The notes beneath the pieces are model-generated. The model did not search any database. It was not told the DNA's origin and saw only the letters and a list, made by a program, of their open reading frames with translations. Below, in pieces: positions 32,467-49,200 of a stretch of 64,000 nucleotides of DNA (positions within the stretch are counted from its first letter, which is position 1; each line of letters begins with the position of its first letter). Where the stretch lies: the NCBI RefSeq assembly GCF_012767755.2, contig NZ_AP023189.1:3536001-3600000 (forward strand), in the 5' to 3' direction. The translations under genes and the position numbers were made by a program. The DNA is from Pseudomonas tohonis (GTDB lineage: Bacteria > Pseudomonadota > Gammaproteobacteria > Pseudomonadales > Pseudomonadaceae).

Positions 32467-33075
32467 TCAGCGTTGCCGTGCGCCGGCCGCGTGCCGGGCC
32501 AGCCAGGTATGCAGCTGGGCGAAGTTCAGCGAGAACTCCGGCATCTGCATCAGGCCGCCGGAGAACACCTCGCCTATCACCCGCTCGATCAGGCGCACCG
32601 CCTGCGGGTTGTCCAGCACCTGCCCCAGGTCCCGGACGAAGACCGAGAAGCCCCAGACCCGCTGGTTCAGCTCCAGGCCGACGAACCAGCGGAACAGCAG
32701 GTTGTAGTTGAGCTGCTCGTAGAGCTGCTTCTCGCTGGGCAGCGAATAGAGCAGTTGCAGCAGCAGCGCATGCAGCAGGGCCGGCAGCGGCACCTGCAGC
32801 TGCTGCGCCCGGGCCCAGCCCTGCAGCTCGGCCAGGGCCTGGCCCATCACCTCGTCGATCTGCGGCCGCAACAGGACCAGCGAATGGCCGGGCGGGATGT
32901 AGCTGGAGACCTCCTTGAGCGCGCTCTGCCAATCGTCCTGGGACACGATCCAGACCCAGGGCGCGGCGTAGCGGTAGACCGAGACCGGCTTCTTGCGCGC
33001 CGCCTCGACGATCTTCGACAGACGCTGGTCGAGCTCCTGCATGCCCACTTTCGAGTAACCGTCCATATTCCCCAT
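32467..33075 (-). CDS. phdA: PhdA-like protein: Phd-type N-terminus joined to IS5-type transposase DUF772 segment
   Basis: 202 residues. Residues ~8-60 (KVGMQELDQRLSKIVEAAR, VSVYRYAAPWVWIVSQDDW) resemble Phd/YefM antitoxin DNA-binding domains. Residues ~100-155 (LHALLLQLLYSLPSEKQLYE, LNYNLLFRWFVGLELNQRVW) match the N-terminal DUF772 domain of IS5/IS1182-type transposases. No catalytic DDE part is present. First gene of the pdtB-exb operon and equivalent to PA0691. No toxin gene is adjacent. Two ATGs (33075, 33066) are possible starts. Regulatory role is inferred from the fold only. Confidence 0.8.
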   Translation of the reverse strand: MGNMDGYSKVGMQELDQRLSKIVEAARKKPVSVYRYAAPWVWIVSQDDWQSALKEVSSYIPPGHSLVLLRPQIDEVMGQALAELQGWARAQQLQVPLPALLHALLLQLLYSLPSEKQLYEQLNYNLLFRWFVGLELNQRVWGFSVFVRDLGQVLDNPQAVRLIERVIGEVFSGGLMQMPEFSLNFAQLHTWLARHAAGARQR

Positions 33076-33214
33076 CGCCCCTGTTCCACTGGCCTCGGCA
33101 CGCCCGCAAACCGCGGGCGAAAGTCGTCGCCCTCCCTGGCGACACGTTCCCTTTCGGCGATATCCCTCGCCGTTGACGCTCCGTACATCACCTTGACCGG
33201 GGCCGGACGGCACC

Positions 33215-33241
33215 ACCGAACTTTTGTCATCGAATCTTCAT
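33215..33241 (-). promoter_or_regulatory. Putative Pho-box-containing promoter block upstream of phdA operon
   Basis: Plus-strand ACCGAACTTTTGTCAT (33215-33230) is identical to 58891-58906 upstream of pdtA. TTGTCAT (33224-33230) and TCTTCAT (33235-33241) are 11 bp apart, the spacing of PhoB half-sites (CTGTCAT repeats). It lies ~140 bp upstream of phdA. The identity and repeat are seen; PhoB or sigma-VreI control is inferred from P. aeruginosa. Confidence 0.55.
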
Positions 33242-33531: not shown

Positions 33532-33557
33532 GAAGCCCGGCTGATGCCGGGCCTCTT
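33532..33557 (-). terminator. Hairpin terminator after small-protein gene
   Basis: GAAGCCCGGC / GCCGGGC-CT-CTTC with a TGAT loop, 18 bp beyond the stop of the minus-strand gene at 33576. Weak T-run; could act in both directions. Confidence 0.55.
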
Positions 33558-33575
33558 CATGGGTACGTAAAGGGC

Positions 33576-33857
33576 TTAGCGACGAACGCCAAGGCGATCA
33601 CGCCGCACCGCCTCGCGGGCAGCACGGAACAAGTCGCTGGCATCCGACAGCAGCAAGTAAGCCGCGTCGGCCACATTGGCCAGATCACGCCCATCGACAC
33701 AGGAGCCCTCCATGCACGAGAGACTGGCGAGCAAATCTCGCGCAGCAACCAGGCGGTACTCGGCTGTTTCCTGGAGTTCCATGTAGGACCGGCTGCCATC
33801 GAGCAAGAGGACAGAAGAACCGGAAGGGTTGGCGGAGAGCGGGCGCAGGTCAGCCAT
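33576..33857 (-). CDS. Small conserved-looking protein of unknown function
   Basis: 93 residues starting MADLRPLSANPSGSSVLLLD, with two amphipathic helices (ETAEYRLVAARDLLASLSC and VADAAYLLLSDASDLFRAA). I recall proteins of this type in several Pseudomonas genomes but no function. The start is chosen because GGAGG lies 8 nt upstream. It overlaps by 8 bp a 28-codon upstream ORF and is followed by a hairpin terminator, so it is a genuine small transcription unit in the inserted segment between phdA and pdtA. Confidence 0.65.
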   Translation of the reverse strand: MADLRPLSANPSGSSVLLLDGSRSYMELQETAEYRLVAARDLLASLSCMEGSCVDGRDLANVADAAYLLLSDASDLFRAAREAVRRDRLGVRR

Positions 33858-33936
33858 GATGAACACCTCCACCGCTGCAAAGTTGGCTGGGTGCGAATAC
33901 AGAAGAGATGAAGTTATCGAGAGCGGCGCGAGTCAT
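33850..33936 (-). CDS. 28-residue leader ORF coupled to the 93-residue gene
   Basis: ATG at 33936 after CTAGGAGCATCACGTC. The peptide begins MTRAALDNFISSVFAPSQLC and ends at a TGA that overlaps the start of the downstream gene. The overlap and ribosome site suggest real translation and coupling. The phrase NFISSVFAPSQL is familiar from leaders of similar Pseudomonas genes, but I cannot verify this without a search. Confidence 0.5.
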   Translation of the reverse strand: MTRAALDNFISSVFAPSQLCSGGGVHHG

Positions 33937-33947
33937 GACGTGATGCT

Positions 33948-34157
33948 CCTAGAGTGAGAGCCATCACCCTTCGCGGCCAAGCGAAGGAAATGGGTGACGG
34001 CTGTACGCAGGTTGGCCGACCGGGACTCTAGGTGCCCGGCACACCCGAAGGTGTCCCGCGCACAGCCGCCATAACACGACGTCGCAGGCATGAAAAAAGC
34101 GCCTGCAATCGGATGGTCGGCGCCTGTGCGCCTAGAGAGTTCGACCGGCCAAGGTCG
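33948..34157 (-). promoter_or_regulatory. Highly structured leader upstream of the small-protein operon
   Basis: Nested stems: CCTAGAGT (33948-33955) pairs with ACTCTAGG (34025-34032). It encloses AGCCATCACCC/GGGTGACGGCT (33959-33969/33992-34002, one mismatch), which in turn encloses TTCGC/GCGAA. Outside it lie ACACC-CGAA-GGTGT (34041-34054), GCAGGC/GCCTGC (34084-34106) and CGACC/GGTCG (34142-34157). It ends 11 bp before the leader ORF start codon, so it would form the 5' UTR of that mRNA or a separate small RNA. The function is unknown. Confidence 0.55.
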
Positions 34158-34271
34158 GCTACGGGATTGACCGCAACGGGCGGACTATATGAGGCAGTGG
34201 GAAAGCCTGCAAGGGCAGTTTTGCATGTGAGTACCGCTAACACCTGCCAGGTGCGAGCCCGTAAGAAACAC

Positions 34272-34298
34272 AAAAAAAGAGCGGCAGTCGCCTGCCGC
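34272..34298 (-). terminator. Rho-independent terminator (duplicated pdtA terminator)
   Basis: Minus strand GCGGCAG-GCGA-CTGCCGC followed by TCTTTTTTT. It is identical to the one at 46159-46185 and would stop minus-strand transcription coming from cdiI. Confidence 0.85.
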
Positions 34299-34342
34299 CC
34301 TCGGGAAAGGGGTGCCGCCCCAAGGGGCGGCCGGGGGTGAGG

Positions 34343-34411
34343 TCAGAGGGTCAGGTTGCGCTGTTCCTCCGGAGTCAGCTGGTTGCGTGTCTGGTAGTCC
34401 AGCTGGCCGGC
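34343..34411 (-). pseudogene. Orphan 3' fragment of pdtA
   Basis: In frame it encodes AGQLDYQTRNQLTPEEQRN then LTL-stop. The intact pdtA ends AGQLDDQVRNQLTPEEQRN then LTL-stop. It has no start codon or upstream portion and abuts the LysE fragment at 34412. It is the trace of a duplicated or exchanged pdtA end. Confidence 0.88.
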
Positions 34412-34418
34412 GGAGCAG

Positions 34419-34784
34419 GTCATTGCCGGTCTTCAGGGTGGCGCCGCCACAGGCCTGCTCGCCGCCTCCGCACTCGGCCTCGGCGCCTTGCTGCTGGCCT
34501 CCGAGCAGCTGTTCAGCCTGCTCAAGCTCGTCGGCGCGCTCTACCTCTTCTACCTCGCCTGGCAGAGCTGGAAGCAATCGCGCAACGCCGCAAAACCTGT
34601 GGCCGCCGAGGAGCAACCGATCAACCCCGGCTTCCGCGTCCTCTACTGGAAAGCCTTCGGCCTCGCCGCCAGCAACCCCAAGGACATCCTCTTCTTCGCC
34701 GACTTCCGGCCCCAGTTCATCAGCGCCGGGCGTTCGGTGCAGGGGAACGGCCGCATTGATATCCCGCTGAGACGGTTCTCCTGA
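34419..34784 (+). pseudogene. LysE/RhtB amino-acid exporter fragment
   Basis: The frame VIAGLQGGAATGLLAASALG ... LKLVGALYLFYLAWQSWKQS ... SNPKDILFFADFRPQFISAG matches the central part of LysE/RhtB exporters (~205 aa). The first ~50 residues, including the PGP motif helix, and the last ~70 are missing. The 5' edge is the end of the 140-bp direct repeat; the 3' edge drifts into unrelated sequence after QFISAG. An internal start at 34488 could give 98 residues, but a functional exporter is not possible. Confidence 0.8.
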
Positions 34785-34790
34785 AATGAC

Positions 34791-34817
34791 GAAGCCCTGT
34801 GGATGCCGGGCTTTTTT
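34791..34817 (+). terminator. Hairpin terminator after LysE fragment
   Basis: GAAGCCC ... GGGCTTTTTT on the plus strand, 7 bp past the last LysE-frame codon. Short stem with a good T-run. Confidence 0.55.
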
Positions 34818-35026
34818 ATGGTGGAGCTGAAAGCGTAGTTGTAGAGAGTCAATCTAGACGAATCGCACTTCGACCCACGCCACAAAAGCCAGACAAGTCG
34901 AAAGCTTGGGTGAGTAGCGGGGTGTTTTGCTAACCAACCACCCCACGCTTCAGATCAACGAGATTACTTAGCAACCCAACTATTAGAACCAGGCCAATAA
35001 ATTTACACTGCCACGCAAACTACAAC
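34818..35026. other. AT-rich spacer downstream of cdiI, no gene seen
   Basis: About 210 bp of low-GC sequence between the LysE fragment and the immunity gene. Composition matches cdiI and the cdiA 3' end rather than the flanking genes, so the foreign segment begins near 34850. I see no orphan toxin fragment or second immunity gene in it. Confidence 0.5.
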
Positions 35027-35629
35027 TCAAGAATAAAGCTTAGGAAAATATTCACTTATATTACTCCCAGCCAGAACCCTATCAACTGAGAAATCCACAG
35101 TCACAGAAACCGCAACCCCTCTACGCAATTCCTCCGGAAAATCCTCAATCCCACCTAAAACACTGGGCATGAGAAACCTGAAATAATCCCCCATTTCAGT
35201 TGTTCCGTCGTAGCCCACTGGGTAGTCCTCCCCCGCGCAACTCCCCTCCACCCCATGATAGATATAAAATCCTTTATTTTTCGGGATATTTGCATCCGAA
35301 AACCGCCCCCTACGCATAAATTCCTTTAGTAGACTTTCAAAGACTTCCTCGCGAGAGGAGCGCTTACTCCAAGCAGACGCAGAGTACAAATCCACTTCAA
35401 ACCCCCCATTCTTATCCTTGGGGTAATTTGTAAATCCAGCAGACTCCTCCCATAAAAACTCATTCATCCTATCAAGAAAATCCTCAGCTTTATCCATCAT
35501 CAGCAACTGCTGCGGCAAATCACCAAAACAATTATTCACCATCATTGCCAGCCTGCCATTTTTATCCATAGCAAACCAAGTATATATAGTGCCAAAACCT
35601 GGCATCCAATCTTTATTCAAATCACCCAT
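35027..35629 (-). CDS. cdiI: Putative CdiI immunity protein
   Basis: 200 residues, mostly soluble, no signal peptide. It begins MGDLNKDWMPGFGTIYTWFA and has an acidic composition with motifs FGDLPQ and EDYPVGYDGTTEMGDYFRF. Its ATG lies 6 bp after the cdiA stop on the same strand. It is very AT-rich compared with the rest of the window and matches the composition of the cdiA 3' end. By position it should bind and neutralise the CdiA C-terminal toxin in the cytosol. I do not recognise the immunity family with certainty; the assignment rests on position and composition. Confidence 0.75.
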   Translation of the reverse strand: MGDLNKDWMPGFGTIYTWFAMDKNGRLAMMVNNCFGDLPQQLLMMDKAEDFLDRMNEFLWEESAGFTNYPKDKNGGFEVDLYSASAWSKRSSREEVFESLLKEFMRRGRFSDANIPKNKGFYIYHGVEGSCAGEDYPVGYDGTTEMGDYFRFLMPSVLGGIEDFPEELRRGVAVSVTVDFSVDRVLAGSNISEYFPKLYS

Positions 35630-35635
35630 AAAAAT

Positions 35636-38600
35636 TCACCATGTGTTCTTGCAGTTCCCACACATACCCACCCTAGCATCATCTGGGATATCTTGCTCAC
35701 CCCAGACCTTGGCAGGCCGAAGAGCCCTTGTAAATTTAAGATTCTCAGGCCTTGACCCCTGCCTAACTAATACATCAGCCCCAGATATCTCAGCACATGC
35801 TCCAACCTTATTTGCACATATATCGGTAAACTCACCAACCTTAACCCCTAGTCTTTCCTCAACAAATCGAACCGTATCGGGATGCAGATCAGCAGCAGTA
35901 ATTCTCCCATTACTACTGCCCACCGCTATACGCCCTGTCTCCGGATCATAGACACCAACCATAGTTGCAATTTTGGCAGCCTGAGTTCGAGATGAAAACT
36001 TATTTATCTCTTCAAGCATCGCCTGATCAGCCTGAGTCGATAGGTCGAGATCGTTTGTAGAGCCAACACTCTCTTGATACATCGCCCATGGGAACAGCGA
36101 TTTCGGCACCGGTTTTGTTTCGGTCCACCATACGCCGGATTCATTTATTTCGCTGCCACCAGTTGATACTGGCCCAGTAGCAACTCCACCAGAACCATAC
36201 CCACCACTAGAAGCATTCTGACCAGAGGGTTTAACACCAGGATTTATAAGTGGCACATAGTCATCTTCATGAATTAGCCTACCCCCCAGCCTCCCTATTA
36301 TGCCATTGACTTCATTTACTCTCTCCAGAGCCTCTTCTGGACTAGAGGTTTCTTGAAGCAAGCGCCCTAATGCCTCGTTCATCTTCTTTTGATTATCTGG
36401 GCTAGATACAACAGCGATAGCTCCAACAGCCAGCACCACGACCCCGAGCACGGCAAGCTCTGCTAGCGCGAAATTATTGCTACCCACCGGCGCTCGCTCA
36501 TGTGCAACGCTCTTATTTAGCATCGACATAACTTCAAGAGCAGCCGCAGGATTATCAACAGCCAGTTTATTTATTCGATCTACAACTATTCCTGCCCCCG
36601 GAGCAGCTAGCTCCGGCAAGAACATATCCATGAGTTGTTTAGCGGCCGCAAGGCGAGTCTGCTCCCCGCCCTTCAGCAAAGCTCTTTCAGCACTATAGGC
36701 TTGAATCACTTTATTGACGGCATCCGGAGGAATACCGCTCCCCACCGCGACTCCCGCAAAAATCAGCTCTCTACTCTGCTCAACCGCATTCTCGGTTTTA
36801 TAAGCATATTCATCTGCCGCCTGCCCCCATCGCTTTAAGGTTTCAGCCGGACTACCAACAGCCTCCACAGACGACTTGGTCACATAAAGATCCGTACGCT
36901 CTTCATGGTCCCTGGTGATCTCATACGCCTTGCTGACATCACGATTGAGCCCAGCGGTGGAGTCGGCACCCGTCTCTGAGTCCTTGCGCACGACGATGTC
37001 GCCATTACCCACGGTAGCGCGGACGATCTGTTGGCGATCCTTCTCGTATTCCCAGCCGTTTACGCTCCAGCCGGCTTCGCCTTCCTTGCCTTTGCCAACC
37101 TGGCTGGCGTCCTGCGTCGTGCCACCACTGCTGCCTCCGGCGCTATAGGTGCCACCAACGTTGAGGTAGTAGCCGTGCTCCTTGTCCACGCCGGCAATGT
37201 CGCTGTGGCCGAGCGTGTTGGTGTCCAGCTTTAGATTGCCGCTGTCGGATGCGATGAGTGCGCCGTCGATCTGGGTGTGGTTTTCAGTGCGGATATCCAG
37301 CTTGTCCTTGGCGGTGATGCTGGTCTGCTCTCCCACCCAGTTGGTCTTGCCGGTGGTCTGCCCATAACCGGCGGAGCCACTGAAGCCCGCACCAGGGCCG
37401 AAGGTTGCGGTGGCACTGACATCGAACTCCTTGCCTTTCACTTCGCCGGTATCGACGGCAGAGGAAACGTGCAGGTCGCCTCCCACGCGCCCGACGACCT
37501 CATCGCCGCGTAGCGTGGCGCCTGAGATGGTGGTGTCTTTGCCACTGTTGAAGTTCAGACCGTTACCCGCGTAGAGATAGGCCTCCTGCTGGCGATCCGC
37601 GTCTCTCTCCAGATCGCCCTTGCCCATGTTCACGCTGACATAGACGCCCACCCCTTGCGAGCCGAAGGTCAGGCCGACCTCGCCACCCGCGTTGTGGCGG
37701 TTGCTTTCGCTGTTGCTGGCGTTCTGCGCGGAAACAATATTGAGGTCGTTGCCCGCGTTCAGGTTGATGTCCCGCTCGGCCTTCGCCTCGGCACCGATCA
37801 AGGTCAGATCGTTGCTGGCCTGAAGATTGATGTCGCGTCCCGCCTCCAGTTGGGTCGCGGTGGAACTGCCCTGGCTAAAGTCCTCGTTCGCGACGCCATT
37901 GCTGCCGCCGACCCCGACCTTGAAGCCGCCGGACGTGCCGCCATGTATACCGCCCCAGCTCTGCCGCTCCTGGTTCTCCTCTCGGGTTTCGCCCTTGGCC
38001 ACGTCCAGGGTGATGTCACGCCCCTTGACGTTGATGTCGCGTCCGGCGCCGAGCTGGCTGCCTTTCACCTGCACATCGTTGCCCGCGGTCATGTTCAGGT
38101 CGTTGCCAGCCTCCAGGGTGGAGGCGCGGGTAGTCTGCTCGGTAATCTCCTGGCTCGAGCTCTGCTTGGAGTTGCCCAGTTTCACATCCGCCGTTGGGCC
38201 GGCCAGGAACTGGCTGACCGCATCCACACCACGCAAGGCGCTGGAGCCCTGGCTGACGCTGTTCTCACCTTTGCCGGCGTTGCTCACCGCATCCTTGGTG
38301 CTGCCGAAGTTGTGATTGAGGCTGATACCCAGGCCCTGACGCTCCTGGACTTCGACATGCTCGATGACCTTGGTCTCGCGGGCAGCATCGATATTGATGT
38401 TATGCCCGGCCTTCAGGTTGATGTCGTTGGATGCCGCTAGGTCGGAGCCGATCTGGTTGATATCGCGCCCCGCATTAACGCCAAGATCCTTCCCGGCAGT
38501 GATCTGGCTGGCCGCAGCCGTCTGTTGCTCCAGACGGTTCTTTTCCTGGGCGCGATCAGCACCGATGAACAGGTTGATGCCGTTGTCATTGCCAGAAATG

Positions 38601-41600
38601 CCGATACCGACCTGCTTCTTCTTCTTCCAATCGCGCTCGGCGCTGCTGTTCTGAGCCGCTACGACGTTTACATCACGGCCGGCGTCTAGACTGACATTGC
38701 GACCAGCATTGATGCCGCTGCCGATCACGTTGATGTCGCGCTCCGCCTGCAGCGTCGCATCTCGGTCCGCGTACACCTGGCTGCCAACACTGGTACTGCT
38801 CTGCGCCTCGCGACCGGCCTCCTTGGCCGAAGAGATCGACAGGAAGCCACCCGAAGTGGAGAGACCGACCTTCTTCTTGTATTCCTCGGTGAGGCTATAT
38901 GCCGTGTCGTTGGCGGAGACGAGGTTGATGTCGCCGGTGTCCTTCACCAGCCCGGCACGCAATTCCACGTCATTACCCGCGCTGGCTTCACTGGCGCGCA
39001 GGCGAATGTCGTTACCCGCCGCGATCACGACATCGTTGCCAGCCTCCAGCTCGCTGGCGACCTGGGTCGCGCTGGTCTTGAGCTGGCTCTTGCCGCTCTT
39101 CGACATGCCGAGGAAACCGGACTTGGTCTTCTTGCTGTAGGAGCCGTGCTCCTCGACACCGGACAGGACTGCGACATTCCCGGTCGCTCCTACCAGCAGG
39201 TCATTACCGGCATGCAGTTCGCTGCCGATCACGGTGACGTTGCGCCCACCGTCGATGTTCAGGCTGCCATCGGCCGCCGTGCTGGTATTGAGGGTGAGAT
39301 CGCCACCAGCTTCGACGACGGACGCGATATTGGTGCTGTCGTAGCTTTCCCGCTGCTCGGTCTTCTTGCGCCCAAAGGAGCCCTTGCTCTTCTTGAAGTA
39401 AAAACTGGCGTCCTCATCCTTCGCGGAAAGCAGGTTTGTGTCCCGCTCGGCATCCAGGGCCACATCCTTCGCGCCCTTGATCTGGCTAGCGACCAGGGTC
39501 AGATCCTGGCCTGCCTCGATGGAGATATCGCCACCGGCCTGAACGACGGACGCCTGCTGACGAATCTGATCGTTGCTGCTCTGGACCTTCTTGCTCTGGG
39601 AAGCACGATGGCTCTCGTTGGCGGCCGACTCGATGCTGACATCGCGACCTGCGATCAGCGCCAACTCCTGTCCAGCCGTCACCTTGCTGGCGACTATCCC
39701 CAGATCCTGGCCCGCTTCGGCTCGGAGAGCCCCACCGACCTGAACTTCACTGCCGTGCTGGGTGACCTGCGACTGGGTCGCATGGGATTTCTTGTACCGG
39801 GCATCAGCACTGTCCACCTCAGCGACCGCACCGATGGTGAGGTCACGCCCGGCGCTCAGGTTGGCGTTGCCTCCAGCCTTGAGTACGCCGCCCAGATTGT
39901 TCAGATCGCGGCCCGCGTCCAGATCGAGGCTGTTGGTCGCTTCGATCCTCGCCGCACTATCGACCGACGCCTGGCTCCAGCTGAAACGCCCGCTGTGTTC
40001 GGTGTAGCCGACAGAGCGCTCGTTGGTGATATCGCCCTTGATGGCTGCGACGCTGACGTCCTTGCCGTTGATGATGCCGCCCTGGGCGTTGCGGATGCTG
40101 TCCGTGGCCAGCAGCGCCAGGAGGTCGCCGGCCTGGACCAGGCCCCTGTTGTCGATGCTTTCGGCGCTGGCCTGGAGGCTCGCGCTGGCGCGCAGGGTGC
40201 CCTTGTTGGCGAGGGCACCGCCGCTGATCAGGGCGACGTCGCGGCCCTGGATCAAGGCGCCGGTGGGGGCGAGGCGATTGTTGGCCTGGGCCAGGTAGAG
40301 CACCGGTACCAGGACCCTTTCGCCGTTCACGACCTGTTCCTGCATCCACACGATGTCGTGGGTCAGGGCGGCGACTTGCTCGGCGGTGAGGGCCACGCCC
40401 GGAGCGAGGTTCAGCGCGTCCTTGCTGGCGATGGCGTTGTCCATCAGGTAGCGATACATGGCCTCGTCGCTGTCCAGGCCGGCGATCAGGCGCTGGCCGG
40501 TGCGGGCAATGACGGCTTCACGGATCAGACGCTGCTCGTAGAGGCCATCACCCAGGCGCTTCTGCGCCTGGTCGGGGTCGAAGCCGAGGCGGCCCAGCAG
40601 GTAGTCGGAACTGAGGAAGTTCTTCAGGTTGGCGAAGGCGGGGTTGGTCTCCACCAGGTAGCGGTGGCTGGGGTTGCTGCTGACCTGGAACAGGCCGTTC
40701 TGGCCCTGGGGCAGGCTGAAGCCCGGCAGGGACAGCGGGTCGACGGACTGCTGATGGGTATCCGGGGGCAATTGGGCGTTGAGGGTGGCGACCGGCTTGG
40801 CATCGCTGTTCACGGCAGTCTGGCCGACGCGGCTTGCGCCTCGGTCGATCTGCTCACCTGGGCGTAGCAGGCCGTTCTCGATCGTCTGCGTGCCCTTGAT
40901 ATCGACGCGACCGCCAGCCTGGACCACCGCGTTGGCGACGTCGCCACCACCCGAGGTCTGGGAAACGCTGGAGTTGCGCACACTGCCGATGGCGATAGCG
41001 CCCAGCGGCATGGCAGCCGGGTTGTAGTTCGGCGAGGCGGGGTCGTTGTAGTCGTTGTAGCGGCCGATGTTGGCAATGAAGCCGTAATACTCGCTCTCGC
41101 TCTTGGTATAGATGTAGTAGTCGTAGTAACGCTTCTCGCCACCAGCTGCGCCGGTATTGAGGAAGTTGCGGGTGTCGAGGCTGATGTCGCCACTGGCGGA
41201 CACGGTGCTGAAGCGGTTGTCGAAATCCCCACCGACGAAGGTCAGGTCGCCGCCCGCAATGAGGCTGGCGCGAGCCGAATCCTGGGTGATCTTGAGACCG
41301 AACTCCTCCTCCACCACATAGGAGGCTTCGCAATGCTTGCCCTTGCAGTTGTCGGTACCGGTAAGGGTAATGCGACCGCTGGTCTGGCTGATGGTGGAAG
41401 CGAAGATGTCCTTGCGGTTGATCAGTGAAGCGACGTCCAGGCGCATGTCGCCCGCACTTTCAACGGTGCCGGAAACGTTCTCCAGCAACGCCATCTGCCC
41501 ATTCGCATCGTCCTTCGCCGCGCTCAGCGCGCCCAGGCTGTAGAGGTCGCCCTTGAGGTTGGTGAGGCTGTTGGCGCGCAGGGCCATGTCGGCGCCGCTG

Positions 41601-44221
41601 AAGAGCAGGCCCTGGTTGAGCAGGGTCGGGGCTTCGATGCGCAGTTTCTGCGCCGCGCCGAGGGTGCCGCGGTTGTCGAGGCTGGCGACGACCAGCAGGG
41701 CATCGCCCACGGTGCTGATGGTGCCGGCGTTGACCAGGCTGCTGCCGAGGCGGAATTCGCCCTTGCCGCCGCTGCGCAGTTGGGCGCCCTGGCCGAGTTC
41801 GGCGCTGGCGGCGCTGAGGGTCAGGTCGCCCAGGCTCTTCAGGCTGCCGTTGCCCTGGTAGCGGCCGCTGAGGGCCAGTTGCAGCCTGCCTTCGGTTTCG
41901 ATGGCGCCGTCGTTGGTCCAGTCGCCGCCGCTGGCGGTGATGTCGTCGATGGACACCAGCTTGCCGCTGACGGTCTGGGTGAAGGTGCCGACCTTGAGGT
42001 CCAGGCGCTGGGCCTGCAGCAGGCTGCTGTTGGTCCAGTCGGCGACGTCGAGGCTGAGCACGCCGTTGGTGGTGAAGCTGCCGCCGGCCTGCCCGGCATC
42101 GGCCAGGCTGAGGGCGAAGCCCTGGGTGCCGACGTGGCGCAGGGTGCCTTGCTGGTTGCTGAGGCTGGCACTGGTGAGGCTGAACCCGGCGTTACCGATT
42201 TCCACCAGGCCGCCGTCGTTGTCGAAGCGACCACCGATGGCGAAGGTGCTGCTGCCGGTGCTGCCGAGGGCGCGCAGCTTGCCACCGGCGTTGCTGGCGG
42301 AGCCGAGGTCGAGGTTCAGCGTCTTGCCGGCTTCGATCAGGCCGCCGTCGTTGGTCAGTTTGCCGCTCAGCGTGAGGCCGACGTTGTCGCCGCCGAGGGT
42401 GCCGCCCTGGTTGCGCAGGCTGTCGGCGTCGACCTTGACCGCCTGCTTGGCCAGCAGTTGGCCGCCGTCGTTGATGACTTCGCCACGCTTAATCTCCAGG
42501 TCGCCCTGGGTGGCGACGATCTGGCCCTGGCCGTTGTCCAGGCGGGTGCTGCTGGTGAGTTCGACGCTGTCGCCCTGGATGCGGCCCTGGCCGTTGCCGA
42601 GGCTGTCGGTGCTGGCCTTGAGGGCGCCGCCCTGGGCGTTGAGGCGGCCCTGCTGGTTGTGCACTTCGCCGGCTTCGAGGGTCAGCGTGCCGTCGCCGGT
42701 GAGGACCTTGCCGCTGCGGTTGTCCAGGCGGGTGCCGGCAGTGGCCTTGAGTTCGCCGCTGTCGGCCTGGAGGGTGCCGCCCTGGTTGTCCAGTACCTGG
42801 GTGGTGAGGGTCAGGCCGTCGGCCTTGGAGAGGATCAGGCCGTCGCCGAGGTTCTTCACCTCGTCGGTGACGGTGACGGTCAGCGCCTGGTTGGCGGCCA
42901 GGGTGCCGCCGCTGTTGTCCAGCTGCCTGCCGTCGACCGTCAGGTCCTGCCGGCCGATGAGCTGGCCGCCCTGGTTGTGCAGGGTCTGGGCCTTCACCTG
43001 GGCGGAGCCGGCGGCGACCAGTTGCGCCCCCTGGTTGTCGAGCGTCGTGAGGTCGGTGGTCAGGCTGCCCTGGGCCAGCACCTGGCCACGGTTGGCCAGG
43101 GTGCCGCCCTGGATGTCGAGGACGCTGGCGGTGTTGGCACTGCCGTCGGCGCGCACGCCGGCTTCCAGGTGGCCCTGGTTGTCGATGCGCGCGGCGCTCA
43201 GGTTCAGATCGCCGGCGGCGGCCAGGCTTTCCTTCACCTCGACGGTGCCGGCGCTGGTGACGCGGGCCTTGCCGCCGGCGTAGGCGCCGCGGGTCAGGTC
43301 GATGTCGGTGGCCTTGAGGGCGATATCGCCGCTGGCGGCGGTGCGCGCGAGGGTCAGCTTGCCGTTGGCGTCGATCTGGATGTCGCCGCCGCTGGCGGCC
43401 ATGTCGCCGGCCAGCTTCACGCCCACGCCCTGCTCGGTGCCCACCAGGCGGATCGCGCCGGCGTACATGCCGCCGAGGGCGGAGCTGTCGATGGCCAGTT
43501 GCGGCTGTGCGCTGCCATCGGCGGCCTTGGCGGTGGCGGCCAGGGTGGCGGCGTCCACCTCGTTGCGGCCGGTGACCAGGGCCAGTTGCCTGGCGTGCAA
43601 CTCGGCGTTGATCTGCGCGCTGCGGGTGATCAGCTCGAACTGGTCGACGTTGCCGGCGTTGAGGCCGGCGCCCTCGATGGCGATGGCGCCGCCGTCCACG
43701 TCGTAGCGGTCGAGGCGGCCGTTCTCCACCACCGGCTTGCCGGTGCTCAGGGTGACCTTGGGCGTGTTGATGAAGCCGCAGCCGTCACAGGTGATGCCGT
43801 GGGGGTTGGCGACGATGACGTGGGCGCCCTGCCCGGCCACCTCGGTGTAGCCCTTGAGCTGGCTGGGGCTGCCACCGCTGACCTCGTTGAGGATGAGGCC
43901 GGCGGCGCGGCCGTTGAGGTTGGCGTTGCCGATGATGTAGCCGCCGAGCTGGGTGTTCTGCAGCTTGTCGGTGGCGTTGTTGAGGATCAGCCCCTGCTGG
44001 CCGACGTTGTAGTCGGTGAAGCGGTTGTGGGACAGGCCGTTGGCGTTGGGCGTGGCGATGTTGACCACCGGCACGCCGTTGCCGGCGCTGCCGATGCTGG
44101 TGTTGCCACCGGCGGCCGCGTCCACCGCGAGATCAGCGGCGGTGGAGACGATGGGGTTGAGGAACATCACGCCGACGAGGACGGTGGCGATGTTCTGGAA
44201 GAAGGGGCTGCGAACGTCCAT
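35636..44221 (-). CDS. cdiA: CdiA: TpsA contact-dependent inhibition effector with C-terminal deaminase-like toxin
   Basis: 2861 residues. Signal peptide MDVRSPFFQNIATVLVGVMF..., then the TPS secretion domain (~40-300) with VANPHGITCDGCGFINTPKV. FHA-1 type DNQGG/LDNSGGxL repeats cover ~340-1000, and hemagglutinin repeats of the type LxAGNDLxxxAGxDI cover ~1330-2300. A hydrophobic segment FALAELAVLGVVVLAVGAIA occurs at about residue 2600, as in membrane-translocation domains. The C-terminus has the YwqJ-type deaminase pattern: LHPDTVRFVEE, then C2809-A-E2811 and C2854-x-x-C2857. No VENN motif is seen. Roughly the last 420 codons are AT-rich and look acquired. It starts 27 bp after cdiB and ends 6 bp before cdiI. 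Toxin activity on nucleic acid is inference. Confidence 0.88.
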   Translation of the reverse strand: MDVRSPFFQNIATVLVGVMFLNPIVSTAADLAVDAAAGGNTSIGSAGNGVPVVNIATPNANGLSHNRFTDYNVGQQGLILNNATDKLQNTQLGGYIIGNANLNGRAAGLILNEVSGGSPSQLKGYTEVAGQGAHVIVANPHGITCDGCGFINTPKVTLSTGKPVVENGRLDRYDVDGGAIAIEGAGLNAGNVDQFELITRSAQINAELHARQLALVTGRNEVDAATLAATAKAADGSAQPQLAIDSSALGGMYAGAIRLVGTEQGVGVKLAGDMAASGGDIQIDANGKLTLARTAASGDIALKATDIDLTRGAYAGGKARVTSAGTVEVKESLAAAGDLNLSAARIDNQGHLEAGVRADGSANTASVLDIQGGTLANRGQVLAQGSLTTDLTTLDNQGAQLVAAGSAQVKAQTLHNQGGQLIGRQDLTVDGRQLDNSGGTLAANQALTVTVTDEVKNLGDGLILSKADGLTLTTQVLDNQGGTLQADSGELKATAGTRLDNRSGKVLTGDGTLTLEAGEVHNQQGRLNAQGGALKASTDSLGNGQGRIQGDSVELTSSTRLDNGQGQIVATQGDLEIKRGEVINDGGQLLAKQAVKVDADSLRNQGGTLGGDNVGLTLSGKLTNDGGLIEAGKTLNLDLGSASNAGGKLRALGSTGSSTFAIGGRFDNDGGLVEIGNAGFSLTSASLSNQQGTLRHVGTQGFALSLADAGQAGGSFTTNGVLSLDVADWTNSSLLQAQRLDLKVGTFTQTVSGKLVSIDDITASGGDWTNDGAIETEGRLQLALSGRYQGNGSLKSLGDLTLSAASAELGQGAQLRSGGKGEFRLGSSLVNAGTISTVGDALLVVASLDNRGTLGAAQKLRIEAPTLLNQGLLFSGADMALRANSLTNLKGDLYSLGALSAAKDDANGQMALLENVSGTVESAGDMRLDVASLINRKDIFASTISQTSGRITLTGTDNCKGKHCEASYVVEEEFGLKITQDSARASLIAGGDLTFVGGDFDNRFSTVSASGDISLDTRNFLNTGAAGGEKRYYDYYIYTKSESEYYGFIANIGRYNDYNDPASPNYNPAAMPLGAIAIGSVRNSSVSQTSGGGDVANAVVQAGGRVDIKGTQTIENGLLRPGEQIDRGASRVGQTAVNSDAKPVATLNAQLPPDTHQQSVDPLSLPGFSLPQGQNGLFQVSSNPSHRYLVETNPAFANLKNFLSSDYLLGRLGFDPDQAQKRLGDGLYEQRLIREAVIARTGQRLIAGLDSDEAMYRYLMDNAIASKDALNLAPGVALTAEQVAALTHDIVWMQEQVVNGERVLVPVLYLAQANNRLAPTGALIQGRDVALISGGALANKGTLRASASLQASAESIDNRGLVQAGDLLALLATDSIRNAQGGIINGKDVSVAAIKGDITNERSVGYTEHSGRFSWSQASVDSAARIEATNSLDLDAGRDLNNLGGVLKAGGNANLSAGRDLTIGAVAEVDSADARYKKSHATQSQVTQHGSEVQVGGALRAEAGQDLGIVASKVTAGQELALIAGRDVSIESAANESHRASQSKKVQSSNDQIRQQASVVQAGGDISIEAGQDLTLVASQIKGAKDVALDAERDTNLLSAKDEDASFYFKKSKGSFGRKKTEQRESYDSTNIASVVEAGGDLTLNTSTAADGSLNIDGGRNVTVIGSELHAGNDLLVGATGNVAVLSGVEEHGSYSKKTKSGFLGMSKSGKSQLKTSATQVASELEAGNDVVIAAGNDIRLRASEASAGNDVELRAGLVKDTGDINLVSANDTAYSLTEEYKKKVGLSTSGGFLSISSAKEAGREAQSSTSVGSQVYADRDATLQAERDINVIGSGINAGRNVSLDAGRDVNVVAAQNSSAERDWKKKKQVGIGISGNDNGINLFIGADRAQEKNRLEQQTAAASQITAGKDLGVNAGRDINQIGSDLAASNDINLKAGHNINIDAARETKVIEHVEVQERQGLGISLNHNFGSTKDAVSNAGKGENSVSQGSSALRGVDAVSQFLAGPTADVKLGNSKQSSSQEITEQTTRASTLEAGNDLNMTAGNDVQVKGSQLGAGRDINVKGRDITLDVAKGETREENQERQSWGGIHGGTSGGFKVGVGGSNGVANEDFSQGSSTATQLEAGRDINLQASNDLTLIGAEAKAERDINLNAGNDLNIVSAQNASNSESNRHNAGGEVGLTFGSQGVGVYVSVNMGKGDLERDADRQQEAYLYAGNGLNFNSGKDTTISGATLRGDEVVGRVGGDLHVSSAVDTGEVKGKEFDVSATATFGPGAGFSGSAGYGQTTGKTNWVGEQTSITAKDKLDIRTENHTQIDGALIASDSGNLKLDTNTLGHSDIAGVDKEHGYYLNVGGTYSAGGSSGGTTQDASQVGKGKEGEAGWSVNGWEYEKDRQQIVRATVGNGDIVVRKDSETGADSTAGLNRDVSKAYEITRDHEERTDLYVTKSSVEAVGSPAETLKRWGQAADEYAYKTENAVEQSRELIFAGVAVGSGIPPDAVNKVIQAYSAERALLKGGEQTRLAAAKQLMDMFLPELAAPGAGIVVDRINKLAVDNPAAALEVMSMLNKSVAHERAPVGSNNFALAELAVLGVVVLAVGAIAVVSSPDNQKKMNEALGRLLQETSSPEEALERVNEVNGIIGRLGGRLIHEDDYVPLINPGVKPSGQNASSGGYGSGGVATGPVSTGGSEINESGVWWTETKPVPKSLFPWAMYQESVGSTNDLDLSTQADQAMLEEINKFSSRTQAAKIATMVGVYDPETGRIAVGSSNGRITAADLHPDTVRFVEERLGVKVGEFTDICANKVGACAEISGADVLVRQGSRPENLKFTRALRPAKVWGEQDIPDDARVGMCGNCKNTW

Positions 44222-44248
44222 GTACTGGAACTCCGGGCGAAGCTGAAA

Positions 44249-45952
44249 TCAGAAGAAGAGGTCGAAGCGGAAATACACCGGGTGCTCCTGGCGCGTGATG
44301 GCGTCAGGGCGTTCCAGGGACCGCGCGAAGGTGACCGAGGCGGCCAGGTGCTGGCCCCGGGCACTGAATTCGAAGGCGTTGCCGCTGAGGCGGCCGCTCT
44401 GGCCGGGGTTGTAGCGATCCCCGTGGATCACCCCCAGGTCGTAGGCGAAGGCGGCGCCGTATTCCTGCACGAACGGCTGCAGCGCCGCCCAGGTCACCGG
44501 CCGCCGCCAGCGCAGCTGGTTGCGCCAGTAGGCACCGGTGTCGCCGGAGAGGGATTGTTCCTTGAAGCCACGCACCGAGCTGAGGCCGCCGACGCTGATG
44601 CGCTGCGGGCTGTAGAGCACGTCTTCGCTGTGCTGGCCGTTGACCAGGCTGTCGACGCTGAAGGATTCGCCCAGCAGCTGGAAGGACTGCAGGTAGCTGG
44701 CGGTGAGGCTGTACTTGTTGTAGCGGGCCTCGGGCGAGTGGTGGAACGGTGTGCGGTCGTGCTGGGCGTCGAAGGCGCCGATGCCGCGCTGCCAGCCGAC
44801 ATCGACGTTGACGAAGGCGTTGCCGATGCGCCGGCCGTGGTTGAAGCCCAGCTGGGATTCGGTCAGGCGCGGGCTGGAGTTGCCGAGCAGGCTGTTTTCC
44901 ACGTAGTTGCGCGTTTCCAGGTGGGCGATGCCGAGGCTGGCAGCGGTCTTGCTGACGCTGTCGCGATGCAGCACGCGCTCGGCACGCAGCTGGTGGTTCT
45001 TGCTCTCGCCGTCGGTGCCGAAGGCGAAGCCGTCGCCCTGGTTACGGGTGCGGTAGTAGCTCTGGCTGTAGGCGTAGCTGAAGTTCCACCAGCCGTAGGG
45101 CAGGTTGTAGAGGACGCTCTGGTTGGCCGAGTGCTTCCAGTGGTCGCTGGCCAGGTCGCCGCCGCCGCGCAGGCTGAGCTGGTCGGCCAGGCCGAAGGGG
45201 CTGTCCCAGTCGAGGCTGGCGCCCCACTGCTGCTCGCCGGTGCTGCGCTGGCCGTCGTTGTGGCGGTTCAGGCCCACGCGCCAGGGCTTGGCAGGCTCGC
45301 CCTTGAGTTGCACGCGGCTGCCGCCCACGTCCGCGCCGGGCACCAGTTCCAGTTGCGCGGGGCGCGACGGCAGGCGGTTGATCTGGTCCACCAGCTGTTC
45401 CATTTCGCGCAAATCGAGCACCTCGCCGTCGCGCGCGGGCGAGGCCATGGCCAGTTCGCGGTCGCTGGCGATGGCGGAGCTGTCGAGGCCTTCGAGCTTG
45501 CCCTCGACCACGATCACGTCCAGCTCGCCGTCGGCCAGGTCCTGCTGCGGCAGGTAGGCGCGCGAGGTGACGTAGCCCTTGTCGATGTAGTGCTGGGTGA
45601 TGGCCTTGAGCAGCTCGTTGAGACGGCCGCTGTCCAGGCACTGGTTTTCGAACGGCTTGAGCAGCTCGCGCTGGCGTGGCGCGGCAATCAGGTTGGCACC
45701 CTGCAGGCGGATGCTGCGGATGTCGAAGCACGGCCCCTGGGTGGCGGGGGCGCTGGGCTGGACGGGGGCCTCACGGCCGGGCAGTTGCTGCAGGTCCTGC
45801 AGGCGCTTGCGCTGCTCCTCGAGGATGCGGTCCTGGCGCTCGCGGATCAGGTCGCGATCGCCAGCAAAGGGCGCACCGGGGCTATCAGCCGCGAAAACGG
45901 AAAAAGCAGGAAAAAGCAGGCAGAAACCCGCAGCGAAAGACTGCAGACGCAT
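44249..45952 (-). CDS. cdiB: CdiB: TpsB outer-membrane transporter for CdiA
   Basis: 567 residues from MRLQSFAAGFCLLFPAFSVF (signal peptide, cleavage near AFA/AA). An N-terminal helix rich in Arg/Glu/Gln (RQDRILEEQRKRLQDLQQ), as in FhaC helix H1, precedes two POTRA domains (~75-225) and a barrel. The conserved L6 motif SVRGFKEQSLSGDTG is near residue 465. The last residue is Phe. It belongs to a different TpsB branch from PdtB (which has VRGYL and no H1-like helix). AAGGACGGTCGC precedes the ATG; codons upstream in the same frame lie in the putative promoter. First gene of the cdiBAI operon. Confidence 0.92.
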   Translation of the reverse strand: MRLQSFAAGFCLLFPAFSVFAADSPGAPFAGDRDLIRERQDRILEEQRKRLQDLQQLPGREAPVQPSAPATQGPCFDIRSIRLQGANLIAAPRQRELLKPFENQCLDSGRLNELLKAITQHYIDKGYVTSRAYLPQQDLADGELDVIVVEGKLEGLDSSAIASDRELAMASPARDGEVLDLREMEQLVDQINRLPSRPAQLELVPGADVGGSRVQLKGEPAKPWRVGLNRHNDGQRSTGEQQWGASLDWDSPFGLADQLSLRGGGDLASDHWKHSANQSVLYNLPYGWWNFSYAYSQSYYRTRNQGDGFAFGTDGESKNHQLRAERVLHRDSVSKTAASLGIAHLETRNYVENSLLGNSSPRLTESQLGFNHGRRIGNAFVNVDVGWQRGIGAFDAQHDRTPFHHSPEARYNKYSLTASYLQSFQLLGESFSVDSLVNGQHSEDVLYSPQRISVGGLSSVRGFKEQSLSGDTGAYWRNQLRWRRPVTWAALQPFVQEYGAAFAYDLGVIHGDRYNPGQSGRLSGNAFEFSARGQHLAASVTFARSLERPDAITRQEHPVYFRFDLFF

Positions 45953-45996
45953 TGCGACCGTCCTTGGAGTAATGGCATATCGACATCGGGGCGGCA

Positions 45997-46024
45997 TTTT
46001 TATGGCGCCGGGAACTTCGCTCAA
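45997..46024 (-). promoter_or_regulatory. Possible sigma70 promoter for cdiBAI
   Basis: Minus strand TTGAGC (46024-46019), a 16-bp spacer, then TAAAAA (46002-45997), about 45 bp upstream of the cdiB ATG. Moderate match to consensus. Bases 46025-46158 show nothing else. Confidence 0.3.
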
Positions 46025-46158
46025 GCCCTTTCCCGACCAAATGCGAACCACTCGTCACTTCGGCCGGTCATGAAGGGCGGCAAATGATAGCCAACTACAA
46101 AATCGATGGAGGCCGAGCAGGGTCTACCCGCTCGCTGGGAAATTTCCGAATCGCAGGT

Positions 46159-46185
46159 AAAAAAAGAGCGGCAGTCGCCTGCCGC
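46159..46185 (-). terminator. Rho-independent terminator of pdtA
   Basis: GCGGCAG-GCGA-CTGCCGC stem followed by TCTTTTTTT on the minus strand, 45 bp past the pdtA stop. A second GC stem (46200-46217 region, GCCGCCCC/GGGGCGGC) lies just before it. Confidence 0.88.
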
Positions 46186-46298
46186 CCTCGGGAAAGGGGT
46201 GCCGCCCCGAGGGGCGGCTGGGGGTGGGGTCAGAGGGTCAGGTTGCGCTGTTCCTCCGGGGTCAGCTGGTTGCGTACCTGGTCGTCCAGCTGGCCGGC
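46159..46298 (-). repeat. 140-bp direct repeat, right copy (intact pdtA 3' end plus terminator)
   Basis: Right-hand partner of 34272-34411. Here the coding part (46230-46298) is the true 3' end of pdtA, so this is the original copy and the left one is the duplicate. Confidence 0.93.
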
Positions 46299-49200
46299 AC
46301 CGAGTACCTGCACGCTGCTGCCGGGGTCGTAGGTGGGGGTGCGGCCGGCGCCTTCGCCGGAGGGCGCCACGCGCTCGTTGCCGAAGCCCAGCACCTGGAC
46401 CGTGAAGATCGACGGCTGGCGCTGGCGCGAGGCGGCCTGCTGGTCGCGGGCCACGCCTTCGGCGGCGTCGCTGGCGGAGCTGGCCGCCGAGCTGGCCGAG
46501 GACAGCGCGCCGGTGTTCACCGCGGCCACCACCGGCACCCCGCTGGACTTGCCCTGCACCTGGATGTTGGCGGCGTTGACCACCTGCAGCGCGGCGATGT
46601 TGACGTTGCCGGAGACGCGGATGCCCGCCTCGCCCGCATCGATGGTGCCCAGGGGCGCCAGCAGGTCGATGTCGCCCGGCGGCACTTCGGCGATGGGCGC
46701 CAGGGTGGCGATGCCGGCACCGGTGCTGGGCACGGTGGGCGACAGGGTGACGTTGCCCCAGTTGTCGTAGACCCGGCGCGGTGGCGTGTACACCAGGGTG
46801 GTCTTGGAACCCCGCCCGGCGTTGATGTCGCCGGCTGCGGACCAGGCCAGGATGTCGCCGCCGAAGGTGGTCATGATGCGGCTCTGGCCCAGCAGCACGC
46901 TACCGTTGGCGAACAGCTGGATGTCGCCCGTGCCCTGGGTGATGACCCCGGCGGTGGACGGCGGGGCCTCGCCCTCGATGCCGAACACCTGTTGCCCGCC
47001 CGGGGTGAGCATCTGGATGCCGCCGCCGAAGTTGGTGTGCACCCCGGCGCCGCCGTACATCGTGATGTCGCCCTGGTAGAGGATCGCGTTGCCGGCCACG
47101 TCGTGGGTGGGGAACAGCGCGGCGATGGCGTTGCGGCCCCGCAGGTAGCTGCCGAAGCGCGGGCTGGCTTCATCGTTGTACTCGCGGCCGCCGGCGCGCA
47201 GCTCGGCGAAGTAGATCTCCCGGGCGAACACCCGTTGCTGCTCCGCCGGCAGCGCGGCGTAGTAGGCGCGCGCCTCCTCGCTCGTGCCGCTGAAGCCGAA
47301 CCGCTCGGCGAGCCAGGCCGCCAGTTCCACCTCGTAGGTCTTGGCCACGCCGCCACCCACCAGGCTGCCGCCGGCCTCGACGCGGTTGGCCGGGTCCAGG
47401 TAGCGCTGGGCGAAGGCCAGGTAGTCCGGGCCGCTGCCGACGCCGGCCTGCATGACGATGTCCGCCCCCGGCCGGTTGTCGCCCGGCACGATGGCGCCGA
47501 GGCTGGTCACCGCAGCCTTGTCCTCCATCAGGATGTTGCGCCCGGCGCTGATCTCCAGGGAGCCGGGGCCGGCGACGTTGAAGGTGCTGTAGAGGATGTC
47601 GCGGCCGGCCGAGACGATGGAGATGTCGGTGGGGTCGTCGTGGATGAAGAGGTTGCCGGTGCTGGTGGCCAGGCCTGCGAACTGCGACAGCAGCGTGCCG
47701 GTCAGCTGGCCGCTGTTGACGATATCGCGGCCGGCCATGATGCGCGCCGGGCGAGCCGCTTCGTACCAGGTCTCGCCCGCCCTCGGTGCACTGGCGAAGG
47801 TGATGATCTCACCGGTACGCAGCCCGATGATGTCGCCGTTGAGGGCGTAGAAACGGGCCGGCTCGTCGGCACCGCGGTAGGCGCTGCGGGTCCCCGTGCC
47901 ACCAAAGGCGAACAGGCTGCGCCCAAGGGCCCCGGCACCAGACAGGTCTCCCTGGTTGGCGCCTCTGGAGTCGAAGTAGTAGAACGCCGGGTTGAAGGGG
48001 GTGGCCAGGCTGGACACCGGCGCGTTGCTGGGCGTGATGGCATAACCCCCTGCATAGATCGAGTCGCCTGCCAGGAATTCCAGCTGCGCTCGGCTGCCGG
48101 GTGCCAGCAACAACGAATAGCGGGTGGTGTTCAGGCTGTTGTCCGTCCACAGCGCGGATGGGCCGTAGTAGAGGCTGCCGCCCGGTGCGACTGCGCGCAG
48201 GATCGACGGATAGACGAACCGGCCATCGGTGGCGGAGAAGTCCATGCGGTCCCGAACACTATCGCTGGAGCCCGCCGCAAGCTCACCGACCTGCGTCGAG
48301 GGGGTGAGGTTGCCGCCTGCGGAGAACAGGTCGATGGCCGTGTGGTCGGTCCACAGGCTGAACCAGGAGCGGCCAATGCTCTTGCCGCCATCGAGATCCA
48401 CCGGCTGCCAATTGCGGGCGTCGGTCCGCCCGGCATCGGCCGCCCCGCCAAGCACAAGGTCACCCCGGGCGCCCAGGCTGATGGTGGCGTCGCCCGGCAC
48501 TAGTACCAGGCCGCCGGTGGCGCTGGCCATGGTGGCCTTGAAGGGGTCGTAGGCACGGCTTTCACGAGGGTCCTGCAGCAACTGCAGCGGCCCATTGACC
48601 TGCTCGATGCCGCCGAAGGAGCCCGCACTGGCACGCACGGTGCCACGCAGGTTGGCCAGGCTGCCATTCAGGTCGTGGCGTTGTGCGACCGGGCGGCTCC
48701 GGTCGTCCAGCATCGCCCGCGCCGTCAAGGCCGGGTTGAGCCCGCCGCCCACCTTCAGATCGAGGTCGCCACCGCCGGTGAGCACCAGTTCACCGTCCAC
48801 CATGCGCCCGGTCGAGCCCACCGCCAGTACCAACCCCTGGCTGCGGGTGGCGATGGTGTTGTCCAGGGTGCCCCGGGCAGCCAGCATGCCGGCGTCACCG
48901 CCTACACGTACATAGAGGTTGCCGCCCCCCAGGGTTCCGAACCCCGTGAAACCGGTGAAGGCGACGTTGTCCTGGAAGGGCATGTAGGTGCCGAAGTTGA
49001 TCCACCAGGCCGTGGGCACTTCGCCATTGACACCGCCGCCCTGGCGCCACAGCCAGCTGCCGACGCTGGAGCTTTCAGGCTGGTCGAGTCCGCCACCGCC
49101 CATCAGCTTGGAACCGAGGATATCGCCGGTCAGGTCACCGCCGACGGAAAGCAGCAGGTTGCCGCCATGATCCGGGTACCAGGCGCGATAGAGGCTGCTG

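Follow-up and report, generated by a model that had tools for sequence, protein, structure and literature searches.

A cdiBAI locus between direct repeats of the pdtA 3' end in Pseudomonas tohonis, and a possible route by which it settled behind the pdtA terminator

In this analysis, we describe a region of the P. tohonis chromosome (genome G000, one contig of 6.83 Mb) in which a predicted contact-dependent inhibition (CDI) locus lies between the 3' end of pdtA and an orphan copy of that same end. Positions refer to the window, that is, the whole stretch of 64,000 nucleotides analysed. The gene names pdtA and phdA come from an earlier, sequence-only reading (the initial annotation), and for pdtA the domains fit. 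From left to right, the region holds the following features.

32467-33216, minus strand: gene in the phdA position (PF05598), by domain search
33557-34232, no strand assigned: small-ORF segment separating phdA from the orphan tail; G009 has it too, G004 has part of it and G008 lacks it
34272-34411, minus strand: left repeat, orphan pdtA 3' end and terminator, by alignment, translation, hairpins and polarised differences
34412-34844, plus strand: broken, internally deleted lysE piece followed by the lysE 3' flank found beside the uraH-lysE cdi locus
35027-35629, minus strand: cdiI by position, a predicted immunity gene of 200 aa from an uncharacterised family, by ORF list and homologues
35636-44221, minus strand: cdiA, 2861 aa (TPS domain, haemagglutinin repeats, C-terminus without a Pfam match), by domain search
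43209-46057, no strand assigned: 2849 bp without a mismatch to the cdi copy at uraH-lysE in G000, by DNA comparison
44249-45952, minus strand: cdiB (TpsB; POTRA_2, POTRA_3, ShlB), by domain search, with the start codon assigned in this analysis
45953-46158, minus strand: cdi leader, directly after the T-run of the pdtA terminator, by sequence comparison
46159-46298, minus strand: right repeat, the real pdtA 3' end (last 22 codons) and terminator, by alignment, translation and hairpins
46230-58832, minus strand: pdtA, a 4200-aa exoprotein (TPS domain, DUF3739), by ORF list and domain search

Alignment recovered the direct repeats at the coordinates first described, 34272-34411 and 46159-46298, as a gap-free pair of 140 bp with 7 mismatches (95%) and a longest exact run of 50 bp; a search of the whole genome with the 140-bp repeat gave 2 matches only at E <= 0.001. 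As the initial annotation had claimed, both copies include the final 22 pdtA codons in frame, with translations ending in AGQLDDQVRNQLTPEEQRNLTL (right) and AGQLDYQTRNQLTPEEQRNLTL (left) before the stop codon, followed by the same two-hairpin terminator ending in a T-run (z -4.5 and -3.1). The right copy is the end of the 4200-aa ORF at 46230-58832 on the minus strand; the left copy has no pdtA frame ahead of it and abuts a LysE (PF01810) fragment, in agreement with the earlier view of a real gene end and an orphan running into truncated LysE. Both ends of the LysE fragment are missing, since the match spans only profile positions 40-133 of 193. Likeness between the repeats ends sharply on both sides, and they lie 11,747 bp apart, or 11,887 bp start to start, which agrees with the 11.9 kb originally given for the insertion. 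Within pdtA itself, the middle of the gene (49159-50658) is 20-24% diverged from G008 and G009, compared with 1.6-9.8% in other 500-bp intervals, and is likely a swapped or hypervariable segment.

The genes between the repeats have the features of cdiBAI. CdiB matches PF08479, PF17287 and PF03865 above cut-off, as expected of a TpsB protein with POTRA and ShlB-FhaC domains, and CdiA matches PF05860, PF13332 and PF05594, the TPS domain and haemagglutinin repeats. Over residues 1-1745, the CdiA proteins of the two G000 loci are 74% identical; their C-terminal ends have no significant alignment to one another, as expected of a polymorphic C-terminus. The VENN pretoxin motif is absent from both; at least five pretoxin classes are reported in Pseudomonas (PMC4725963), so membership of the CDI family does not rest on VENN. 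Pfam gave no match to the CdiA C-terminus, and neither NCBIfam nor PDB gave a credible one from which to read a toxin class. The predicted cdiI likewise had no Pfam match, and of its 219 homologues the source-named ones among the 120 listed are hypothetical or uncharacterised. ORFs of at least 80 aa in 34412-46158 comprise the cdi genes, the lysE piece and frames overlapping these. No recombinase/integrase or transposase domain was found in the four main ORFs of this interval, and the only repeat longer than 100 bp within 28000-52000 is the pdtA end rather than an IS flank. An IS- or integrase-borne element was set aside, none being recognised in the interval ORFs scanned.

Searches of 18 genus genomes with CdiB and with the LysE fragment led to a second address in the same chromosome. 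A CdiB 100% identical in amino-acid sequence to that at pdtA is encoded at G000:C1:4293980-4295779, and an intact lysE lies at 4285024; the order there, at 4.29 Mb, is uraH-cdiB-cdiA-...-lysE. This address is also used in G008 and G009, with conserved flanks, while G015 and G017 lack cdi there and have about 0.6 kb between uraH and lysE, and G001 has lysE without uraH in the 3-kb stretch examined. The two G000 copies match over 41396-46057; all 84 mismatches lie within the first 1813 bp, and the remaining 2849 bp, which cover cdiB and the start of cdiA, are free of them. At one end of this tract, the leader is identical to the uraH-site leader over 45953-46057 and differs from it over 46058-46158; at the other end of the locus, 34845-39831 has no DNA match in the uraH-lysE cdi copy. 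Upstream of the stretch matched between the two G000 copies, the pdtA-site cdiA belongs to the G008 type (94% over 38645-46057) and that of the uraH site to the G009 type. The lysE piece is 93% identical to intact lysE over 304 bp (34441-34744), followed by a deletion and then by the lysE 3' flank. At both addresses the cdi leader starts right after the T-run of the upstream terminator; at the left junction, pdtA codon -22 is joined to lysE without evident homology. Given the identical 2849 bp and the adjoining broken lysE, the pdtA-site locus would most simply derive from a uraH-lysE-type cdi locus, and the match of the cargo to such a locus, still present in G000, explains the truncated LysE. 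The cdiBAI genes between the repeats are thus most likely not foreign to the lineage; a foreign origin is not favoured, as the same genome holds the uraH-lysE locus.

Comparison of pdtA loci bears on whether cdi was inserted. Among the 18 genus genomes, strong matches to the protein in the phdA position occur in four (G000, G004, G008 and G009) and weak ones in 11 others, and pdtA-end matches occur in the same four. In a set of 63 pdtA-type loci, phdA could be placed in 25; 17 of these have an estimated pdtA-phdA gap of less than 1.2 kb, and the other 8, of which one (L007) is G008, a gap of 3.6-7.6 kb. The shortest gaps, estimated at 91-102 nt, occur in other Pseudomonas and are taken as the uninterrupted site. 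Because other Pseudomonas have such short intervals, cdi looks like an insertion between pdtA and phdA. None of the 63 loci has cdi behind pdtA within the stretch examined, and many of these stretches end soon after pdtA or are non-Pseudomonas; 26 weak cdiB matches (21-24%) sit at the pdtB position. Seven loci of other Pseudomonas (L010, L022, L028, L031, L032, L036 and L038) have gaps of 6.1-7.6 kb without cdi, and on these comparisons insertions between pdtA and phdA are common. Separate promoters are reported for the two genes in P. aeruginosa (PMC4971064), so insertion between terminator and promoter need not disturb either gene if the same holds here.

The search for an empty site among relatives, which had been proposed as a check, gave a divided answer: short pdtA-phdA intervals exist, but the nearest two cdi-less relatives, G008 and G009, carry a piece of the cdi leader at the pdtA end. 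At pdtA, both lack cdi and carry an insert of three genes (TauE, a 325-aa protein and LysR). The leader piece of G008 consists of an exact 39 bp and a further 49 bp at 76%, that of G009 of 38 bp at 95%. A 27-base leader motif (at most 2 mismatches) occurs twice each in G000, G008 and G009, at the native cdiB and at the pdtA end, and not in G004; the reversed control occurs in none of the four genomes. A dispersed repeat was rejected as the source of this motif, which has two copies per genome in the three genomes having it. Because the short leader piece remains, we infer that cdi was probably once present at pdtA in G008 and G009 and then lost, and G008 and G009 are not favoured as virgin empty sites. 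The motif at the pdtA end of all three genomes also suggests that cdi was probably at pdtA before these species separated. On the phdA side, the small-ORF segment of G009 is flanked by 288-bp direct repeats (96%; L070, about 4953-5239 and 6126-6413), and G008 (L072, 5400-6000) has a single 288-bp repeat without the segment, the state that recombination between the two would leave.

G004 has its cdi behind typA, and it also has a degraded orphan pdtA tail, 93% identical over 56 bp to its own pdtA end and 81% over 57 bp to the left copy of the window. This tail lies beside the phdA-side flank on a different contig from pdtA; both contigs are read as ending in transposase sequence. Beyond the tail are ORFs read as toxin/immunity remnants, of which one was scanned and had no Pfam match. 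Orphan tails in strains that never carried cdi would have spoken against the initial annotation. In the 18 genus genomes and 63 pdtA loci, a tail through the stop codon occurs only in G000 and G004, beside cdi in the former and presumed remnants in the latter; none was present in the 63 loci among up to four best matches per locus, though some of these loci have weak or non-coding matches to the pdtA tail.

The divergence of the tails bears on their age and direction. The left and right tails differ at 7 of 140 positions, compared with 15, 15 and 22 substitutions between the orphan and the pdtA ends of G008, G009 and G004 (plus one gap against G008 and G009), and 11 substitutions and one gap each between the right tail and the ends of G008 and G009. 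The suggestion that the divergent copy came from a donor with a diverged pdtA-like end is not borne out, the orphan being nearer to the pdtA of its own genome than to any of these. When the 7 differences are polarised with the alignment of G008, G009 and G004, the derived base is on the orphan in 5 cases and on the real gene in 2, one of these 2 being less clear, with a third base in G008 and G009. The smaller distance between the two tails is as expected for a younger, within-species orphan allele. If cdi at pdtA is older than the species, we prefer, at about an even chance, an orphan made younger by within-species recombination over one that was homogenised. The choice is not proven, because there is no mosaic in pdtA near the gene end: G000 is about 5% diverged from G009 and G008 in that part, a value typical of most of the gene, and no donor segment was seen.

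Duplicated gene ends also occur at other cdi loci. Twelve cdiB loci were placed in the genus, eight behind typA, three behind uraH and the twelfth in G016, where the order is intact typA (G016:C43:340039-341884), a two-gene cargo read as a phosphatase and an MFS transporter, an orphan typA tail, cdi and a third typA end. The nested ends lie at 1142-1198 and 16512-16606 of L227 (G016:C43:343286-363285); the first orphan holds 19 codons and the terminator, and the third end about 3-4 codons and the terminator, overlapping a 248-aa ORF. Both are nearest to their own typA among 9 typA ends (7/109 and 4/61 columns), a set that does not include the relative nearest in typA, G007, which also has cdiB beside typA. 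In G005, short CdiB remnants (G005:C24:64759-64994) lie beside typA at 65342 and are a probable lost cdi locus. Across the family, 117 of 298 genomes have a cdiB match at E <= 1e-150. We oriented 44 loci, 39 from the family (40 chosen; G020, with 3.5 kb only, was dropped) and five from G000 (two), G004, G008 and G009, several of them cut by contig ends. Two of the 44 have a duplicated gene end with coding sequence, a count that leaves out short matches resembling terminators at some loci and, at L251, a multi-copy repeat of 142 bp, with G004 as an additional case; the footprint is therefore real but rare. Paired cdiB genes with at least 90% nucleotide identity occur in 8 of 18 other multi-copy genomes (18 of the 20 with at least two cdiB; G023 and G270 were left out), so shared front halves are frequent and the full identity in G000 is at the extreme; G057 has an exact run of 1822 bases.

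Taken as a whole, an account to which we give an even chance is that a second, uraH-lysE-derived cdiBAI settled behind the pdtA terminator and that the left repeat is the displaced pdtA end of the recipient. The cargo adjoins lysE-flank DNA and carries the uraH-lysE leader, cdiB and the start of cdiA, and an origin at that address would be the simplest explanation. The uraH and pdtA terminators share AAAAAAAG, and their T-runs may be where the right join arose in an ancestor. Next, a close relative would have supplied a pdtA-cdi-lysE' fragment, which entered the lineage with one end recombining homologously in pdtA. Its other end, inside lysE, would have been joined with no clear homology at a point 22 codons short of the pdtA stop, leaving the last pdtA codons and terminator of the recipient behind as the orphan. 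Later, to judge from their identity, the two cdi copies would have exchanged sequence, giving the 2849-bp identical tract while the toxin ends stayed different. In support of a route anchored in pdtA, the G004 orphan is nearer to its own pdtA end, and the orphan typA ends of G016 are nearest to their own typA and have other break points. Against it, the donor piece at the pdtA end is not seen, although a same-species donor would leave no trace; gene conversion between the tails would explain their closeness too; and the short leader pieces of G008 and G009 may be one event, given the common three-gene insert. The G004 tail and pdtA are on different contigs, and coding orphan tails are rare (recognised at 2/44 oriented cdi loci). 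Of the original claim that cdiBAI came with or through a pdtA-like 3' end, the insertion, the orphan left copy and recombination through the pdtA end, as the most economical route, find support.

An alternative that we consider unlikely, though it survives best, is a single insertion that duplicated its 140-bp target, the ends of a cdi-lysE fragment having been joined to two sister copies of the pdtA end at points 140 bp from each other. No donor pdtA is required, and the boundaries of the tails fit plain target duplication. The tails would have been identical at the start and later kept similar by gene conversion, and the 2849-bp tract does suggest exchange between the two cdi copies. However, the leader pieces of G008 and G009 suggest that cdi at pdtA is older than the species split, and tails of that age should be more diverged unless converted. 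Somewhat less probable again is a circle with a pdtA tail, cdi and the lysE piece, integrated by a Campbell-type single crossover in the tail: it yields exactly the observed order with a direct repeat, and the 50-bp exact run could be the crossover substrate, but a pdtA-cdi-lysE' circle with the same lysE-pdtA join must already have existed. In genomic islands at gene ends, the insert restores the 3' end of the gene and an orphan end lies at the far side. Our locus resembles these, yet a site-specific integrative element with the pdtA 3' end as attachment site and the repeats as attL and attR seems very improbable, since the four main interval ORFs lack a recombinase domain and the lengths of orphan tails vary between species and genes. 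Least credible of all is an assembly artefact, for although perfect identity over 2849 bp of distant loci could reflect collapsed or polished repeats, the genome is a single 6.83-Mb contig, the repeats differ at 7 sites and related arrangements occur in G004, G008 and G009.

Returning to the route anchored in pdtA, a more tentative generalisation, which we hold to be possible but short of an even chance, is that each cargo entry is anchored in the upstream gene and displaces the gene end of the recipient, so that orphan 3' ends would be a recurrent footprint of CDI loci and other cargo settling behind terminators. If true, orphan tails would allow successive entries to be counted and dated, for example from the nested typA ends in G016 and from the pdtA tails that G000 and G004 carry.

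Two CDI loci have been reported in P. aeruginosa PAO1, and the Pseudomonas cdiBAI loci described in the same work (PMC4725963) share with ours the cdiB-cdiA-cdiI order, TPS domain, haemagglutinin repeats, variable C-terminus and presence of two loci per genome; the second locus of G000 differs in adjoining flank DNA of the first address and a duplicated host-gene end, with 2849 bp identical. The CDI/CDS megacircle transposon of Burkholderia thailandensis (PMC6350997) likewise places a CDI locus at new chromosomal positions with repeated ends, but is described with IS ends, a transposase and a 210-kb circle, whereas the G000 repeat is the end of a gene, with no IS recognised. Homology-facilitated illegitimate recombination (PMC3240628) has one homologous and one illegitimate end, as in the proposed route, and in T6SS effector swaps of P. 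aeruginosa (PMC11751169) antibacterial effector genes are similarly exchanged at conserved sites; compared with what these two sources describe, G000 keeps the orphan 3' end of the anchor gene as a footprint, and here the process is read from sequence. A literature search of titles and abstract openings, mostly without subscription papers, turned up neither a description of cdi in the pdtA-phdA interval nor one of orphan gene tails at cdi loci. What G000 offers is one chromosome with a CDI locus at two addresses and a piece of flank pointing to the address of origin. The orphan gene tail is a readable footprint of how antagonism loci may enter post-terminator sites without an obvious mobile element, and recombination through pdtA is a way in which such loci could spread between chromosomal sites. 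A pair of loci that have the front half in common and differ in toxin ends would widen the arsenal of the strain, letting the common half recombine. As a further observation on the leaders, the palindrome GGAAATTTCC at 46138-46147 recurs near the upstream terminator in several cdi leaders, among them those of L135, L136 and, behind pdtA, G004 (end of L074).
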